Below, one piece after another: positions 25,433 to 38,519 of a stretch of 64,000 nucleotides of DNA; the stretch's first letter is position 1, and every line of letters begins with the position of its first letter. Origin of the DNA: Ideonella alba (GTDB taxonomy: Bacteria > Pseudomonadota > Gammaproteobacteria > Burkholderiales > Burkholderiaceae_C); the NCBI RefSeq assembly GCF_018069875.1, contig NZ_JAGQDF010000004.1, positions 1 to 64,000 on the forward strand. The letters run 5' to 3'. The notes under the pieces were generated by a model. The model was not told where the DNA came from and did not search any database. It was given only the letters and a program-made list of their open reading frames with translations. The position numbers and the translations under genes are program-made.

Positions 25433-26083
25433 TCAGCGACCCAGCATTTGCTCAGCGTATCGCGCCACAACGTGACCGAAGTTGTCGAGTCGACCCGCCG
25501 CATCAGGCGTTCGAAAACCCTCGGCCAGTTGGCTCAACTCCTCGTCGCTTGCCGAGGTCACAAAGGCATCGTCAAAGACCCGTCGCAGAGCCTCTACACG
25601 ACGTTCCCGAAGGAAGCTGATGTCGAGTTGCAGGATCTTCAACATGAAGTCGGCCGCCTCATCGTCGCGGTCTGTCGGGTAGATCCTGCCGTCACCCAGC
25701 GAGTACAAAAAGCGACGCTCACAGTCCATGTCGAGCGGTGAAATGGCCTGTGCCTCATCGAAGTCGCTGCCCTTGGCGTGCCCGCAGTGCAGTGGCAAAC
25801 CCGGGCGCGTCTCGCGGATACACGATGCATGCAGATTGCCATAGTCGAGCGCCAGGTCTGGGCGGGCTTCCTGCGGCCGGAAGTGCTCTATGTGGCTGTC
25901 TGAAAAGTCAATTCGGCACCCGCAGTAGCAGCACACCCAACCCTGTTCGCAAAGAAGCGATTCGTGCAGTTCGCGCTTCTGCGGGTTTTGCAAACCATCG
26001 TAGGTCGGCTGCCAATCCGCGTTGGCTTGAGCCTTCCATTGAGCAAAGCCCACAGGCTCAGCCTGCTTGATGACCCGCTTCAT
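25433..26083 (-). CDS. ptuB: Septu defence HNH endonuclease PtuB (TIGR02646-like)
   Basis: A 216-aa protein with an HNH nuclease core: the zinc-like cluster CCYCGC at residues 51-56, HIEHFRP (H64, H67) and YGNLHASC (N83, H85). Length and motifs match the TIGR02646 family, whose members pair with an ATPase in the Septu anti-phage system. The gene starts inside the stop codon of ptuA (ATGA). Base composition is lower in GC than the flanking genes, consistent with transfer. In characterised Septu systems PtuB is the nuclease effector held by PtuA. Confidence 0.85.
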   Translation of the reverse strand: MKRVIKQAEPVGFAQWKAQANADWQPTYDGLQNPQKRELHESLLCEQGWVCCYCGCRIDFSDSHIEHFRPQEARPDLALDYGNLHASCIRETRPGLPLHCGHAKGSDFDEAQAISPLDMDCERRFLYSLGDGRIYPTDRDDEAADFMLKILQLDISFLRERRVEALRRVFDDAFVTSASDEELSQLAEGFRTPDAAGRLDNFGHVVARYAEQMLGR

Positions 26084-27405
26084 CGACCCAGGACTTCCTT
26101 GCGACGAAGCAAGGCCCTGGCACCCGACAACTCAGGAATGCCTGGCGCAATCGACTCCAGCGCTGTCAGTCGCCTTTGCGCAGAGGGCAACTCACCGCGC
26201 TCCAGGTCCTCGAACAGGGCATCCAGCTGTGCCTGAACATCTGACGTCCGCGCATCGGCACCCATGATCTCCTCCAGGACTTGGCTGGAGGTCAGGCCGT
26301 AGCTGACCTGTGGATGATCTGTCTGACCATTCCTGAGCAGGATGATTTCGTCGGGTCGCAGTTCACCCAGCACCTGCGGTGAGTGGCTTGCCACGATGAA
26401 TTGGACAGCTGGAAAGGCCCGCTTGAGGCCGCTGGTCAGGATGCGCTGCCAGCGGGGATGGAGGTGCATGTCCAACTCGTCGATCAGCACCACCCCGGGT
26501 GTTTTCTGCGTCACATCCCAGCCCAGTTGCGGGTTCAGCAGACACATACGCCGCGCAATGTCGGCCACCAGCCCGATGACTGCCCGTTGACCGTCGCTAA
26601 GGTTCTCGAAGGCCGTCGGTTGGCGATCGTTATCGCCCAACGACCGCCACTCCATCAACAGGCTTTTCTGCTTGAGGTCGTACTTCAGGCCTTTGGCGCC
26701 CTCTACGGCGTCGCCCAAAGCGCGATTGACCAAGGCTAATTCGTCGTTGTCGATGGCATCGAAGGCCACACCAGTCTCAGATGATGTTTGGAAGCGTTCA
26801 AGGCACTTGCCAATGACCCAGGCTTGAAGTGCAGTAGCGTCCAGAGATGCATCCCACCAAGACGCATAGCCATCGGTTCGCCCACTGCGGGTTGCAGCCG
26901 CCTGTATTTCCTGTGGTTGACTTTGGCTCCAATGCCGATTGGCACGGTAGAAGGCCATGATAGGCAGAGACGACTTGGCTCGGGTCGTCTGGGCAGTCGG
27001 ACCAACCGCCTGTTGGATCCCTTGCCAGACAAGGCCCGGCGGCGTTCCACCTGAAACTGCGCCGTCAACCTGACTGGTCCGCTGCGTAGTCCAGATACAC
27101 ACACTTTCGTGGTCGAAGACCTCGGCGACAGCAACGACTTTGACAGGATACTGCGACTCGAAGCGAATGCGTCCGTGGTCAGCGTGCCCAAGCAAGGTGG
27201 CGACGTTGGGGTCATCCATTGCGACCACGCTGGAAATCGACATGTACTGACTGAAGCCCGTCAACAACGCGTCGCACAGTGCCTTCAATAGCGATGTCTT
27301 GCCGCTACCGTTTACGCCAACTACGACATTGAAGCCAGGCTTGAACGCCACATGCAAATCTCGATGGCACCGGTAGTTGGTCAAGTGGACCGACTCAAAT
27401 CTCAT
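26080..27405 (-). CDS. ptuA: Septu defence AAA/SMC-like ATPase PtuA
   Basis: A 441-aa ABC/SMC-type ATPase: MRFESVHLTNYRCHRDL at the N-terminus, Walker A GVNGSGKT (residues 30-37), signature-like LSDGQRAVIGLV, Walker B GVVLIDELDMHLHP and a terminal switch QFIVASHSPQVL. This is the OLD/PtuA-like arrangement. ATG 27405 has an excellent ribosome binding site (AAGGAGG) on the minus strand; the longer open frame to 27519 has none. Immediately downstream and overlapping is the HNH partner. No reverse transcriptase or ncRNA was seen next to it, so it is a plain Septu rather than a retron. Confidence 0.86.
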   Translation of the reverse strand: MRFESVHLTNYRCHRDLHVAFKPGFNVVVGVNGSGKTSLLKALCDALLTGFSQYMSISSVVAMDDPNVATLLGHADHGRIRFESQYPVKVVAVAEVFDHESVCIWTTQRTSQVDGAVSGGTPPGLVWQGIQQAVGPTAQTTRAKSSLPIMAFYRANRHWSQSQPQEIQAAATRSGRTDGYASWWDASLDATALQAWVIGKCLERFQTSSETGVAFDAIDNDELALVNRALGDAVEGAKGLKYDLKQKSLLMEWRSLGDNDRQPTAFENLSDGQRAVIGLVADIARRMCLLNPQLGWDVTQKTPGVVLIDELDMHLHPRWQRILTSGLKRAFPAVQFIVASHSPQVLGELRPDEIILLRNGQTDHPQVSYGLTSSQVLEEIMGADARTSDVQAQLDALFEDLERGELPSAQRRLTALESIAPGIPELSGARALLRRKEVLGR

Positions 27406-27522
27406 TAGCCCTGCCTCCTTAGGTTGAGCTAGCTGCCGCCGCATCTCGCCAGATCCGTCGACGGCGTCGCCACAGTATGACGCGACGTCGCTGTTCAACT
27501 TACCGCACGGCGAGAACAAACC

Positions 27523-34921: not shown

Positions 34922-35079
34922 GGCCGACCTGGCGCTGGCCCAGTCGCGTGTCCACGCGGTGGGCCGGGGCCGCTGCGCGCCAACCTGTCGTATCCCTGCC
35001 GACAGCTGGGGAAGGCCCCGACGAGTGAGCCGCCCAGGCCAATCCTAGAATCGGCGCTCCCCAAGGCAGGAGGATGCAG

Positions 35080-36615
35080 ATGGCTGTGCTTGAGTTTCCC
35101 GATGCGCTCGATCCCGGACACTGGGATCGGAAGAAAGGATCACTTCCCCCTCGAAGTGATGTGGGCGAGGCGCTCAAGGCATTGCACAAGCGGCACCAGA
35201 GTGTGGACTGGTCCGTCTGGGACATCGCCAGCGTGCGCAAGGTCCGCAGCCTGGCTGATTTGGACAAGGCCTACGGCAGCCGGGATGACGCCTGGGACAG
35301 TCTGGCCGAGGCGCTGGGCAAGTTGATCAGCACCGCCTCGGATACCGCCGCAAAGCAGGCCAAGGCCAAGGACGCAGCCAAGCCCACCCTGGAGGCCTGC
35401 AAGGACATCATCGCTGAGGCCCAGAAGCACCAGAAGCGCCTTGACACCCTGGGCAAGGAGCTGGCGGCCGCCCTCAAGGAGGCGCGCCAGGCCCTGGCGG
35501 CGGAACAAAAAGGCTCCGAGGACGAGGGTGATGACGCTGATGCCGCCGTCGCCGCGCTCTTCGACCCCAAGCGTTTGCTGGCGCAGTTGATGATGTGCCA
35601 GCGCAAGCCGGAGTACCGACCGAACTTCGCCTTCATCGACGCGAACCCGAAGCTCAAGAAACCCGCTGCACTGTGTCTGCACGCCAAGGTCTCCGGCCGC
35701 ACGCTGCTGCGTCGCCTGCAGGACGAGCAGGACATCAAGCAGGGATGCTACGGCGTGGCGTGGATCGAAGATCGGGTGCTGAATCTGCGCGTGGACAAAC
35801 CCTTCAGCGGCCTGACCAAGAAGGTTCGGGGGCCGCTCAAGGCCTGTGGCTTCCGCGTCAGCGCTGTCGTGCTGTGGGCCGAGGACGGCACGGCACTGGA
35901 GCGCGACGACGAGGATGACGCCGCCACAGCCCAGGACGAGACCGGCACGCCGCCGCCTGCCCCGCAGTCACCCGAGGTGTCGCCGGCGCCCCCAGGTGTC
36001 AGCCAGGCCGACTTCATGGCCCGGCTCAAGGCCCTGCAGCCGGCCATCGTCCAGGCCACGGGCGGCGCCTCCCGGGATCCCCGGGTCGCCGCGCTGGTGG
36101 CCCGCATGGGTGAACTGGCCAAGGCCAAGGACTTCGACGGCGCGATGGCTGTACTTCGCGCACTGCAGGACATGCTGTCATCCCGCGGCGGCGGCGGCGC
36201 AGGTTCGCCCAGCGGCGAGTCGCCGCTGGGCAATGAGTTCCCGGCCAAGTGGCGCCGCATCTCGAGTGAGTTGCGCGAGGCCAGCGAGTCGGTCGATGAG
36301 CAGATCAGCCGGCTGCAGCGCGTGCTGCGTGAGCAGGACGACAGCGAGCTCAAGGAGATTGCCGAGTTCGGCCTCAATGCGGTCACAGGCAACTTCAAGG
36401 TGCCCTTGCTGGCCGCGATGCTGGAACTGGGCGACGGCCACAACGCCACCGCCGAGGACGCGGCCGGCGCGCGCGAGCTGGCACGTGCCTACGCCAATCA
36501 CCTGCGCGGCGACATCCGCGTCGCCGCCTGTGACCAGAACCCCTTCGGGATCGAAGTCAGCATCCGTGACACCCTGGCGGCGGCACTCGATCGCTTTGTC
36601 ACCGAACTGTCCTGA
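35080..36615 (+). CDS. Large charged protein of unknown family, partner of LanM-like protein
   Basis: A 511-aa soluble protein with no recognised family. Residues about 25-145 are helical and rich in Lys, Ala and Glu (AAKQAKAKDAAKPTLEACKD...LAAALKEARQALAAEQK). A mixed alpha/beta region at about 155-275 includes FAFIDANPKLKKPAALCLHAK and GVAWIEDRVLNLRVDKP, with an acidic linker (ERDDEDDAATAQDE) and a Pro-rich stretch after it. The C-terminal 200 residues are again helical. ATG 35080 is used, not 35074, because AGGAGG at 35068-35073 is then six bases away. Its stop lies 20 bases before the LanM-like gene, which has its own GGAAGGAG site, so the two form one operon. Confidence 0.8.
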   Translation: MAVLEFPDALDPGHWDRKKGSLPPRSDVGEALKALHKRHQSVDWSVWDIASVRKVRSLADLDKAYGSRDDAWDSLAEALGKLISTASDTAAKQAKAKDAAKPTLEACKDIIAEAQKHQKRLDTLGKELAAALKEARQALAAEQKGSEDEGDDADAAVAALFDPKRLLAQLMMCQRKPEYRPNFAFIDANPKLKKPAALCLHAKVSGRTLLRRLQDEQDIKQGCYGVAWIEDRVLNLRVDKPFSGLTKKVRGPLKACGFRVSAVVLWAEDGTALERDDEDDAATAQDETGTPPPAPQSPEVSPAPPGVSQADFMARLKALQPAIVQATGGASRDPRVAALVARMGELAKAKDFDGAMAVLRALQDMLSSRGGGGAGSPSGESPLGNEFPAKWRRISSELREASESVDEQISRLQRVLREQDDSELKEIAEFGLNAVTGNFKVPLLAAMLELGDGHNATAEDAAGARELARAYANHLRGDIRVAACDQNPFGIEVSIRDTLAAALDRFVTELS

Positions 36616-36635
36616 CCGAGGGAAGGAGCACCACC

Positions 36636-38519
36636 ATGGTCATGTCGATCAGCCAGTTCAAGGCGGCCTTCAAGATGGGGGCCGAGCAGGTCAACCCCAA
36701 GATCCGCTGGGCCGCCACCAAGAACATCTTCCTGAGCCAGACCCGCCTGGCCTCCATCGCGTCCGACCTTGACGACATCGAGAACAGCCCGCCACCGGAG
36801 CGCCTCCAGAAGGTGCTGGATCTGCGCCTGAAGATCGCCCGCGCCAAGGAGGACCGCAAACTCAACGCCAAGTACGGACAACTGCTGGATGATCTCAACA
36901 AGAACCTGGCGGACACGGTGGTGCGGTCCCAGGACATCAGCGTCGGCCCGCCCAAGGTGTCCCTGGTCAAGACCATGGCCGGGGTACCCGGCGTGCGGGT
37001 TGACGACGAGTTCGTCAAGGACGACATGGGCACGCTTCACGGTGCCACGCTGACGCAGAACAAGTTCGACTACATCAACGACCTGGTGAGCAAGGTCAAG
37101 ACCATGGGTTCCGACCTCGGGGTGGCGATCGACGGCCTGGACTCCCTGGTCATCAGTGCGGTCAAGGACACCAAGCTGGGCGTCGACTCAGGCGTCATCG
37201 ATGGCAGCATCTGGGAGCAGGCCATCAACGAGGTCCGCAACAATGTGTCCAAGAACATCACCAAGGATCTGGCCGAGATGAAGTCCAGCGGCCTGCTGGG
37301 CCCGACGGCAACACTGGCCGGCATCCGTTTCACCGGCAGTGATTTCCACAAGGGCGGCAAGCAGGTGCTGATCCTGCGCTTCATCGACGGCGGCAAGGAG
37401 AAGAAGGTCGTCTACAAGCCAAGCAGTCTGGCCATCGACGCCATGCTGTTCGGCTCCGACGGCGTGGCGTCCAAGCTGGAAGGCGTGGACACCTATCGCA
37501 TCGTGCCGATCATGACCAAGGATGTCCCGCCAGAGGACACCGGGCGCGGCTACATGGAGTTCGTGGACACCGGCGGTGGCCCCACCGGCAAGGACGACGT
37601 GCTGGACATCTACGCCAGCATGGGTGGTGCCATGGCGATGTCCTATTACGTCGGACTCGATGACGTCCACCAGGAGAACGTGCTGCTGAAGAAGAATTCG
37701 TTGCAGGTGATCGACATGGAGGCGACGACGGGCCTGTTCGTGCTCAACACCGACTACCTTGCGCCCAAAAAGAACCCGGAGGAGGACGACAAGGTCGATC
37801 CGCAGAAGTGCAAGAAGGGCGGATGGGCCGATCAGCTCTGGACCAAGTCGCTCGAGGGCATCCGCAAGACCATTGAGCGCGACATCCAGGACGGCAAGAT
37901 CACCACCTTGCCGACCACGCCAGAGGCTCTCAACGCCCTGTTCAAGGGCTTCTCGGATGTGATCGGTCGGATGAGCGACCCGGGCAAGGGGCCTGACCTC
38001 AGCGAGCTCGAGAAGAACCTTGGCAAGTTGACGGCTCGATTCGTGCCGATTGCCACGGCCGAATTCAACAACCTCATCCCCACGGCCCAGCGCGACAACT
38101 ACCCGCTGCTGGCGGGCGACACACCGGCGACACTGGACAGCTGGACCCGTTACATCGACGAAGAATTGGCACACCGCAACGGCGCCCTGCTGGTGCCGCT
38201 CAAGGGAGGCACGTCGACGCCGCTACCGACGATCCGCAATCTGATCGTCGCCGCGGGCGCCTGGAAAGCCCTGCGCGCTGGCGAGGTGCCGTACTACACA
38301 CGCAACCTGGGGACCAACGTGGTCCGCGACGAGGACGGCAATCCGGTGACGATCGATGGCCACGCCAAGTCCAATCCCCTGGGGATCGTCGCGGCGATGA
38401 AGAAGCGGCGCGAGGAGGATCCGGCGGCCGTGGTCAAGTTCTTCAAGGCCCAGATGGGGACGCTGGTGACCGACATGCACGAACACATGATCGGCTGGTT
38501 GCGCGCGTTCAGTCACTGA
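36636..38519 (+). CDS. LanM dehydratase-like (DUF4135-type) protein without cyclase domain
   Basis: A 627-aa cytoplasmic protein whose middle and end follow the dehydratase core of class II lanthipeptide synthetases. Kinase-like active-site residues are all in place: K261 in VVYKPSS, D343-x-H345-x2-N348 in DDVHQEN, and D360 in VIDMEA. GYMEFVD and the late motif GEVPYYTRNLG (P552) match LanM landmarks GW-E-F and DIPYF. The LanC-type cyclase half and its zinc ligands are absent, and no precursor peptide was seen nearby. By homology it could phosphorylate or dehydrate Ser/Thr of a protein, perhaps its operon partner; that is inference. The N-terminal 200 residues are helical and unassigned. Confidence 0.78.
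   Translation: MVMSISQFKAAFKMGAEQVNPKIRWAATKNIFLSQTRLASIASDLDDIENSPPPERLQKVLDLRLKIARAKEDRKLNAKYGQLLDDLNKNLADTVVRSQDISVGPPKVSLVKTMAGVPGVRVDDEFVKDDMGTLHGATLTQNKFDYINDLVSKVKTMGSDLGVAIDGLDSLVISAVKDTKLGVDSGVIDGSIWEQAINEVRNNVSKNITKDLAEMKSSGLLGPTATLAGIRFTGSDFHKGGKQVLILRFIDGGKEKKVVYKPSSLAIDAMLFGSDGVASKLEGVDTYRIVPIMTKDVPPEDTGRGYMEFVDTGGGPTGKDDVLDIYASMGGAMAMSYYVGLDDVHQENVLLKKNSLQVIDMEATTGLFVLNTDYLAPKKNPEEDDKVDPQKCKKGGWADQLWTKSLEGIRKTIERDIQDGKITTLPTTPEALNALFKGFSDVIGRMSDPGKGPDLSELEKNLGKLTARFVPIATAEFNNLIPTAQRDNYPLLAGDTPATLDSWTRYIDEELAHRNGALLVPLKGGTSTPLPTIRNLIVAAGAWKALRAGEVPYYTRNLGTNVVRDEDGNPVTIDGHAKSNPLGIVAAMKKRREEDPAAVVKFFKAQMGTLVTDMHEHMIGWLRAFSH

Follow-up and report, generated by a model that had tools for sequence, protein, structure and literature searches.

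A LanM-type dehydratase-like protein without a cyclase domain, encoded beside a member of a type VI secretion-linked family in Ideonella alba

We analysed a stretch of 64,000 nucleotides of Ideonella alba (the window, from whose first letter positions are counted), which carries two genes, here called A and B, that lie in the same direction with a gap of 20 bp and form an operon-like pair (Table 1). Gene A was read from the ATG at 35080, with an AGGAGG six bases 5′ of it; the first in-frame ATG is at 35074 and gives a reading of 513 aa (35074-36615). In the place directly downstream of B there is no immunity gene and instead prfC, convergent to B, 19 bp beyond its end. The gaps flanking B (20 and 19 bp) leave no room for a precursor gene directly beside it, and the layout agrees with the earlier note, which had described an operon-like pair away from a normal lanthipeptide cluster. 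The surroundings of prfC were uninformative, as among eight genomes of the genus proC, HD and ubiA were nearby in only one, and neither A nor B was near prfC in any of the eight.

Table 1. Features of the A-B locus, in positions of the window.
Feature	Positions	Strand	Description and basis
AGGAGG, RBS-like	35068..35073	+	ahead of the A start at 35080; sequence
Gene A	35080..36615	+	511 aa; member of an undescribed T6SS-linked family; ORF and family profile
A conserved core	35557..35910	+	residues ~162-279 of the 513-aa reading; alignments
N-P-F motif near the A C-terminus	36538..36546	+	alignments A1 and A6
AAGGAG, RBS-like	36623..36628	+	ahead of gene B; sequence
Gene B	36636..38519	+	627 aa; LanM-type dehydratase-like, without LanC domain
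B N-terminal region, residues 1-200	36636..37235	+	without family match; Pfam scan
PF13575 match in B	37233..37730	+	kinase-fold part of the dehydratase
B D236-x-H238	37341..37349	+	aligned with CylM D252/H254 (elimination)
B K261	37416..37418	+	aligned with CylM K274
B D343-x-H345-x2-N348	37662..37679	+	aligned with CylM D347/H349/N352
B D360	37713..37715	+	aligned with CylM D364
B R468-x5-T474 (RFVPIAT)	38037..38057	+	probable counterpart of CylM R506/T512 (elimination)
B EVPYYT, residues 550-555	38283..38300	+	corresponds to the DIPYF-like motif of LanM

LanM dehydratases are known from the biosynthesis of peptide antibiotics. Residues 200-365 of B matched PF13575 (DUF4135, the LanM dehydratase domain) with 76.7 bits (cut-off 29), over 157 of the 378 model positions (18-174), and the Pfam scan listed no LanC cyclase domain in B, while the same library detects LanC in five LanM proteins; the LanM-type dehydratase lacking LanC, which the earlier note had read here, is thus borne out. 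When a profile of B was compared with the PDB, LicM2 (6e-28) and CylM (2e-22) were found, and hhalign gave a probability of 98.5 for residues 223-363 of B against five DUF4135 proteins. The match of B to the LanM-type domain is beyond chance, since a profile built from seven relatives with B left out gave B 100.5 bits (reversed B was not reported), and an ordered motif pattern, derived from B itself, did not occur in any of 5000 shuffled versions of B. B resembles the class II synthetases CylM and LicM2 in its dehydratase domain and in its catalytic positions, seven of them clear and two (R468 and T474) probable, whereas it differs from them in having no LanC domain, in its N-terminal 200 residues, in its score with the LanM model TIGR03897 (69.1 bits, below the cut-off of 304) and in its neighbourhood, as no precursor, transporter or protease gene was recognised beside it.

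The roles of the CylM catalytic residues in phosphorylation and elimination were taken from PMC4550811. All nine positions have counterparts in B in the alignments, and seven of these were aligned to CylM itself (K274, D252, H254, D347, H349, N352 and D364, with the numbering recounted on the profile-versus-PDB alignment). Precisely, B has the five phosphorylation residues and the two P-loop elimination residues, D236 and H238; the kinase-type residues K261, D343-x-H345-x2-N348 and D360 and the PYYT-like motif, all named in the earlier note, were each confirmed in the sequence. R468 and T474 were aligned by MAFFT and to LicM2, not directly to CylM, and their R-x5-T spacing is at chance level, being found by itself in 3628 of 5000 shuffles of residues 363-627. 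We regard this R-x5-T as weak evidence for counterparts of the remaining elimination residues.

These figures bear on the possibility that B is a kinase-only effector or regulator, which would phosphorylate a protein without eliminating the phosphate. Its kinase half is clear and its second half has diverged beyond scoring (only 1.8 bits against the relatives beyond residue 365), the R-x5-T alone is no better than chance, and a PI3/PI4-kinase-like protein adjoins another gene of the A family (see below). However, D236 and H238, on which elimination in LanM depends, are invariant together with R468 and T474 in all 8 rows of alignment A3, and RFVPIAT in B resembles RYHPVAT of L022, a relative linked to a CesT gene. 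We consider a kinase-only B rather unlikely.

According to PMC10676384, dehydration domains cut out of CylM, HalM2 and NukM suffice for dehydration, and the excised dehydration domain of CcaM was inactive without its cyclase domain. As CcaM is another unusual DUF4135 enzyme, the lack of a cyclase in B could mean a lack of activity. The dehydrazole LanMbC enzyme CcaM is like B in representing DUF4135 dehydration outside the classical lanthipeptides, but, as described in PMC10676384, it has a fused class III cyclase, needed for dehydration, and is clustered with YcaO, and B has neither.

B might also be an orphan RiPP enzyme: a lanthipeptide synthetase, degenerate or acting in trans, with a distant precursor and a cyclase elsewhere. 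In fact, the source genome has one LanC-like match over the cut-off (contig C11), and a DUF4135 protein without LanC in another locus (L025, 611 aa) matches nearly the whole domain model. Against this, no transporter was recognised by eye around the C11 LanC-like gene (among called genes of at least 60 aa), directly beside it there is only a small acetyltransferase-like gene, and B is confined by its two short flanking gaps. We find this explanation highly improbable.

B was matched in 1 of 100 genomes, the source genome itself, so that the co-occurrence of the pair across genomes, by which the earlier note proposed to check it, is limited to a single case. Among the DUF4135 matches a ninth, L010, was under its cut-off and was left out. 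No close relatives of B were found among the phage records or among the viral contigs; 40 plasmid records gave partial matches, with a coverage of at most 39% among the 30 of 40 matches listed. In two other Burkholderiales genomes there are LanM-like proteins without LanC (L022 and L023), each 22% identical to B and with the same nine positions; both have a CesT (type III) chaperone-like gene 5′, whereas B has an A-family gene in that place. The rhizobial loci L051 and L052 were rejected as B-like as they hold annotated LanM genes, the one of L051 adjoining YcaO genes and carrying LanC, and L053 is the same rhizobial LanM gene seen as two overlapping frames.

As regards A, the earlier note had assigned it to no recognised family. 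Neither Pfam nor NCBIfam gave A a match over the cut-off, PHROGs and PADLOC had nothing at E ≤ 0.01, and the best E of its profile against the PDB was 0.13. A is one of a hitherto undescribed protein family, which occupies five places in the source genome and has further members in related bacteria; paralogs were found in the source genome and in I. aquatica. The core of A is the part most similar among the closer family members, and the N-P-F motif is kept in 6/6 rows of alignment A1, and some of the 13 rows of A6 lack it. In a scan of 84,980 genomes the family came up at five loci, two of them of I. aquatica. As at most three candidates were scored per genome in the searches of the phylum and of the order, their counts are lower bounds: at least 2 of 398 genomes in the phylum (the source genome, and a second whose weak match contained stop codons and was dropped) and, for the order, at least 1 of 399, again the source genome. 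The 24 places considered below include two weak or short ones (G835 C13 and G835 C18), and the gene calls in the second (L116) did not match the A profile. The earlier note mentioned neither this family nor its link to type VI secretion, nor the elimination-residue counterparts D236, H238, R468 and T474 of B.

TssK is encoded in 7/7 of the genomes or records where the A family was mapped. Four of six lineages have a member at 21 kb or less from TssK, a limit chosen afterwards, and random placement reached this in 1 of 20,000 runs. By single places, 7/24 are within 21 kb of TssK and 17/24 are not, many of the latter being on other contigs in draft genomes. Members in or beside T6SS clusters were found in the source genome (C9), I. 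aquatica (C25), Aquabacterium A7-Y, an Eleftheria plasmid and MAG_28. The A-B pair itself is on contig C31 and the only TssK found in the source genome is on C9, in contrast with T6SS cargo effectors encoded near their own cluster.

B could also be a T6SS-linked internal regulator that modifies a T6SS component, like the Ser/Thr kinase PpkA. The T6SS cluster of the source genome includes a Pkinase-domain protein, with an A-family member at the cluster edge, in line with such a role; several neighbours of A-family genes (patatin, HExxH), however, look degradative and not regulatory. This reading appears very improbable to us.

The neighbours of A-family genes vary by locus and include a PI3/PI4-kinase-like protein, patatins, HExxH protease-like proteins and large proteins of no family. 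Precisely, one has a PI3_PI4_kinase match with a DRHAGN motif, HExxH is present in 9 of 21 neighbour proteins tested, and the protease-like ones come with CpXC genes; at C58 of I. aquatica the A-family gene has no co-directional neighbour. In the loci examined no DUF4135 protein was beside any other member, and no sequence similarity was found between B and the other neighbours. The fixed large partner that the earlier note saw in A is hence not supported, since the family is multi-copy, its neighbours change among loci, and only the source genome, at a single locus, showed A together with B. The same results bear on the earlier note's idea that A is the substrate of B in a self-contained system for dehydrating a large protein. 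The tight two-gene layout would suit it; the family, however, does not depend on B, as its members occur elsewhere with patatins, HExxH and other proteins and without DUF4135. We judge it improbable that A is the substrate.

T6SS cargo effectors use adaptor proteins such as DUF4123, EagR and DUF2169, and in such systems, as with A, a constant protein is encoded close to T6SS genes together with toxin-like enzymes that vary. DUF4123, EagR and DUF2169 were not among the Pfam matches of A, and the Pfam scan listed no known T6SS carrier, adaptor or marker domain in A or B. Among the roles that the earlier note guessed for A, adaptor and secreted effector are supported, and export itself is what we infer. 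We give even chances to the reading in which B, a LanM-type dehydratase lacking a cyclase, serves as an effector that is injected or released, and A, linked to the T6SS, acts as carrier, as adaptor or as a protein exported alongside. Our confidence is reduced by the chance-level R-x5-T and by the inactivity of the CcaM dehydration domain alone.

According to this proposal the kinase-fold domain of B would phosphorylate Ser/Thr using ATP, and B would then eliminate the phosphate to give dehydroalanine or dehydrobutyrine; B would thus serve as an injected or released effector instead of making a lanthipeptide. A would be the constant part of the module, possibly binding B as its cargo, and its companions would be interchangeable toxin-like enzymes, B at this locus and PI3/PI4-kinase-like, patatin or HExxH protease-like proteins elsewhere. 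OspF and HopAI1 are type III effector phosphothreonine lyases. SpvC, a further lyase of this kind, is described in PMC4159009 as leaving the product proposed for B, dehydrobutyrine or dehydroalanine in the target protein, but it removes a phosphate already on the target, whereas both steps would fall to B; no phosphothreonine lyase family was among the Pfam matches of B.

If the target is in another cell, our guess is that it is eukaryotic (a protist, say) rather than bacterial, which fits better as no immunity-like gene is beside B. The literature search (titles and abstract openings, CpXC included) gave no report of a LanM-type or DUF4135 secreted effector among the matches listed; two apparent mentions of LanM, in PMC13377157 and PMC12599244, were discarded, as there the letters 'lanm' are a piece of a reference identifier.

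In its strongest form the effector reading would have a contractile injection system deliver B as a one-enzyme weapon that phosphorylates and eliminates, acting irreversibly on Ser/Thr of recipient-cell proteins, and A would be the first of a new family of proteins that carry T6SS cargo and pair with interchangeable enzymes; this we put forward only tentatively, as doubtful. A chemistry of antibiotic making may in this way have been put to use as a weapon delivered by injection. The LanM domain with its catalytic positions is found in toxin-like settings, beside a T6SS-linked partner family here and downstream of genes for type III chaperones in two further genomes, and if B acts on the proteins of another cell, irreversible dehydration would be a mechanism of attack contained in a single enzyme. 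The A family offers a handle for further cargo; patatins and protease-like and kinase-like proteins are already among its neighbours.

We consider the product of gene B, from its sequence, to be a LanM-type dehydratase without a cyclase. The match to PF13575 (DUF4135, the LanM dehydratase domain) covers its residues 200-365, with 76.7 bits against a cut-off of 29 and over model positions 18-174 of 378, and TIGR03897 scored 69.1 bits on the same part, below its cut-off of 304. By hhalign, B was aligned to five DUF4135 proteins with a probability of 98.5 across residues 223-363, and a PDB search with a profile of B and three LanC-less relatives found the class II lanthipeptide synthetases LicM2 (6e-28) and CylM (2e-22). 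In CylM, according to one study, K274, D347, H349, N352 and D364 act in phosphorylation, whereas D252, H254, R506 and T512 serve to eliminate the phosphate (PMC4550811). When eight DUF4135 proteins were aligned, the counterparts of these nine positions proved invariant; in B they are D236, H238, K261, D343, H345, N348, D360, R468 and T474. Seven of them were aligned directly to CylM in the PDB-search alignment, on which the CylM numbering was recounted; R468 and T474 were aligned with LicM2 in that alignment and elsewhere by MAFFT. No orthologs of B were found in the collections searched, and the A-B pair is a single case.

For phosphate elimination by B, D236 and H238 are the firmer half of the argument. 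Beyond residue 365, B scored just 1.8 bits against a profile of its relatives, and the R-x5-T spacing, found once after residue 362, proves nothing, because it is also contained in 3628 of 5000 shuffles of the same part. Its context supports a putative elimination activity, both by the likeness of RFVPIAT in B to RYHPVAT in L022 (one of two Burkholderiales loci in which a CesT gene precedes a DUF4135 gene) and by EVPYYT 82 residues after R-x5-T, a place taken in relatives by DIPYF-like motifs at a distance of 60-81 residues. For CylM, HalM2 and NukM, the dehydration domain is reported to be sufficient for dehydration when excised, but that of CcaM is not (PMC10676384).

Genes A and B lie head to tail with a 20-bp gap, each with an RBS-like sequence ahead of it; prfC is convergent with B, 19 bp from its end, and the two genes upstream of A encode, as judged by eye, lipoprotein-like products. 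In neither A nor B did we find a strongly hydrophobic stretch or, by eye, a start resembling a Sec signal peptide. The window is on contig C31 of a 5.5-Mb genome in 36 contigs; elsewhere in the window, the codon scores of a Septu-type defence pair are below those of most of its neighbours.

Locations of the genes discussed (G000, genome holding the window; G014, Ideonella aquatica; C, contigs; L, loci inspected)
Feature	Location	Strand	Remarks
Gene A	window 35080-36615	+	511 aa; 513 aa if started at ATG 35074
Gene B	window 36636-38519	+	627 aa
Septu-type defence pair	window 25433-27519	-	PtuB (PDLC00346, 273 bits) and PtuA (PDLC00277, 516 bits)
TssB-TssC-like fusion	G000:C9:16079-17869 (L046)		
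TssB-TssC-like fusion	L029 5217-7376		
Protein similar to the fusion	G014:C25		
DUF4135 proteins directly behind CesT genes	L022 6952-9617; L023 7365-10259		718 and 774 aa; two Burkholderiales genomes
LanC-like protein	L128 8603-10218 (G000:C11)		409 aa
Giant A-family protein	L109 8960-13441 (G000:C11)		1493 aa

A is a member of an undescribed family; it had no match above cut-off in Pfam and NCBIfam and none at E <= 0.01 in PHROGs and PADLOC. Relatives are present on two plasmids, in the genome holding the window and in I. aquatica, and when a four-row alignment was searched against 84,980 genomes, 33 candidate stretches came down to 5 distinct loci (a Burkholderiaceae MAG, Aquabacterium sp. 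A7-Y, Candidatus Aquabacterium excrementipullorum and, twice, I. aquatica). A 13-row profile matched 28 times across seven genomes or records; merging left 24 places, five of which are in the genome holding the window. All 13 rows share an invariant N-terminal Trp; the closer members have in common a core around GLVKKVRAP, which has diverged in others, and an NPF motif is invariant only in the six rows of a smaller alignment. Two members are giant (1493 and 1161 aa); the longer one has repeated family segments and no Pfam match.

The neighbours of A-family genes, for which a simple in-house caller was used outside the window wherever annotation was absent, vary, and many look like toxins. Besides B in the window, they include patatins of 1123 and 704 aa (the latter encoded ahead of its A gene), a protein of 1249 aa that matches PI3_PI4_kinase and contains the motif DRHAGN, and large proteins belonging to no family; one I. 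aquatica member has no co-directional neighbour. HExxH was present in 6 of 18 neighbour proteins tested in one set and in 3 of 3 in another, two of them matching Pfam ATLF at or barely over the cut-off. Most HExxH genes are followed by, or lie near, a CpXC gene, identified by Pfam in L018 and L046 and by similarity in L018, L030, L049, L112 and L114; its product could be an immunity protein. The downstream position of the CpXC gene recurs in all six of these loci, and L018 has three consecutive HExxH genes, the first two each with a CpXC gene.

There is a link between the A family and type VI secretion. The genome holding the window has a T6SS cluster encoding TssK, VgrG-like, kinase-domain and sheath-like proteins, at one end of which are an A-family gene, a CpXC gene and the gene for an HExxH protein of 1044 aa; I. 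aquatica has a similar set. Two A-family genes are directly behind TssK and sheath genes in Aquabacterium A7-Y, two are 4-10 kb from TssK on the Eleftheria plasmid, and one is 9.5 kb from it in MAG_28. TssK was present in all seven genomes or records in which the family was mapped, and 7 of the 24 places are within 21 kb of it. Four of six lineages, leaving out I. aquatica as belonging to the same genus, have a member within this distance, which random placement equalled in 1 of 20,000 runs, a figure to be taken as a guide and not as a formal test, since the 21-kb limit was picked after the distances had been seen. Two observations speak against this link: the contig that carries the A-B pair has no TssK, and the member in Qingshengfaniella lies 186 kb away from TssK and next to type I secretion genes.

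T6SS clusters holding A-family genes also encode a protein of about 600 aa matching VipB and, at about the cut-off, VipA, that is, a TssB-TssC-like fusion, besides which the own genome and I. aquatica have a canonical sheath protein. On the Eleftheria terrae plasmid (L012/L057), an A-family gene has six RebB R-body genes within some 6 kb, and these are also near a T6SS cluster.

The simplest interpretation is that A would be a constant carrier or adaptor binding B, one among several interchangeable cargo enzymes, and that B, exported by the T6SS, would phosphorylate proteins in another cell and then eliminate the phosphate. Of this, the analysis shows the domain and its residues, the missing cyclase, the A family with its varied neighbours and the T6SS linkage, whereas the A-B binding, the export, the activity and the target are inferred. 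No immunity gene was found directly downstream of B; for this reason B, if a toxin, may be aimed at eukaryotes.

A DUF4135 match over the cut-off was obtained in 8 of 399 genomes of the order. Four of these eight proteins have LanC (L003, L004, L005 and L024); it was not found by Pfam scan in B, in the 611-aa protein of L025 and in the two proteins whose genes each follow a CesT chaperone gene (PF05932). Since type III effectors are the clients of CesT chaperones, we consider the latter two candidate type III LanM-like effectors; at these loci, as in B, the LanM-like domain seems to have taken on an effector role. No report of a secreted LanM-type or DUF4135 effector was found among the titles and abstract openings listed in the literature searches, the scope of which excluded subscription journals and preprints. 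The own genome also encodes a LanC-like protein, whose gene adjoins a small one that, as judged by eye, resembles an acetyltransferase gene. On the Rhizobium beringeri plasmid pRlX2 (L051), a LanM gene forms a cluster together with methyltransferase, YcaO-like and TfuA-like genes, which may encode a dehydrazole-like pathway.
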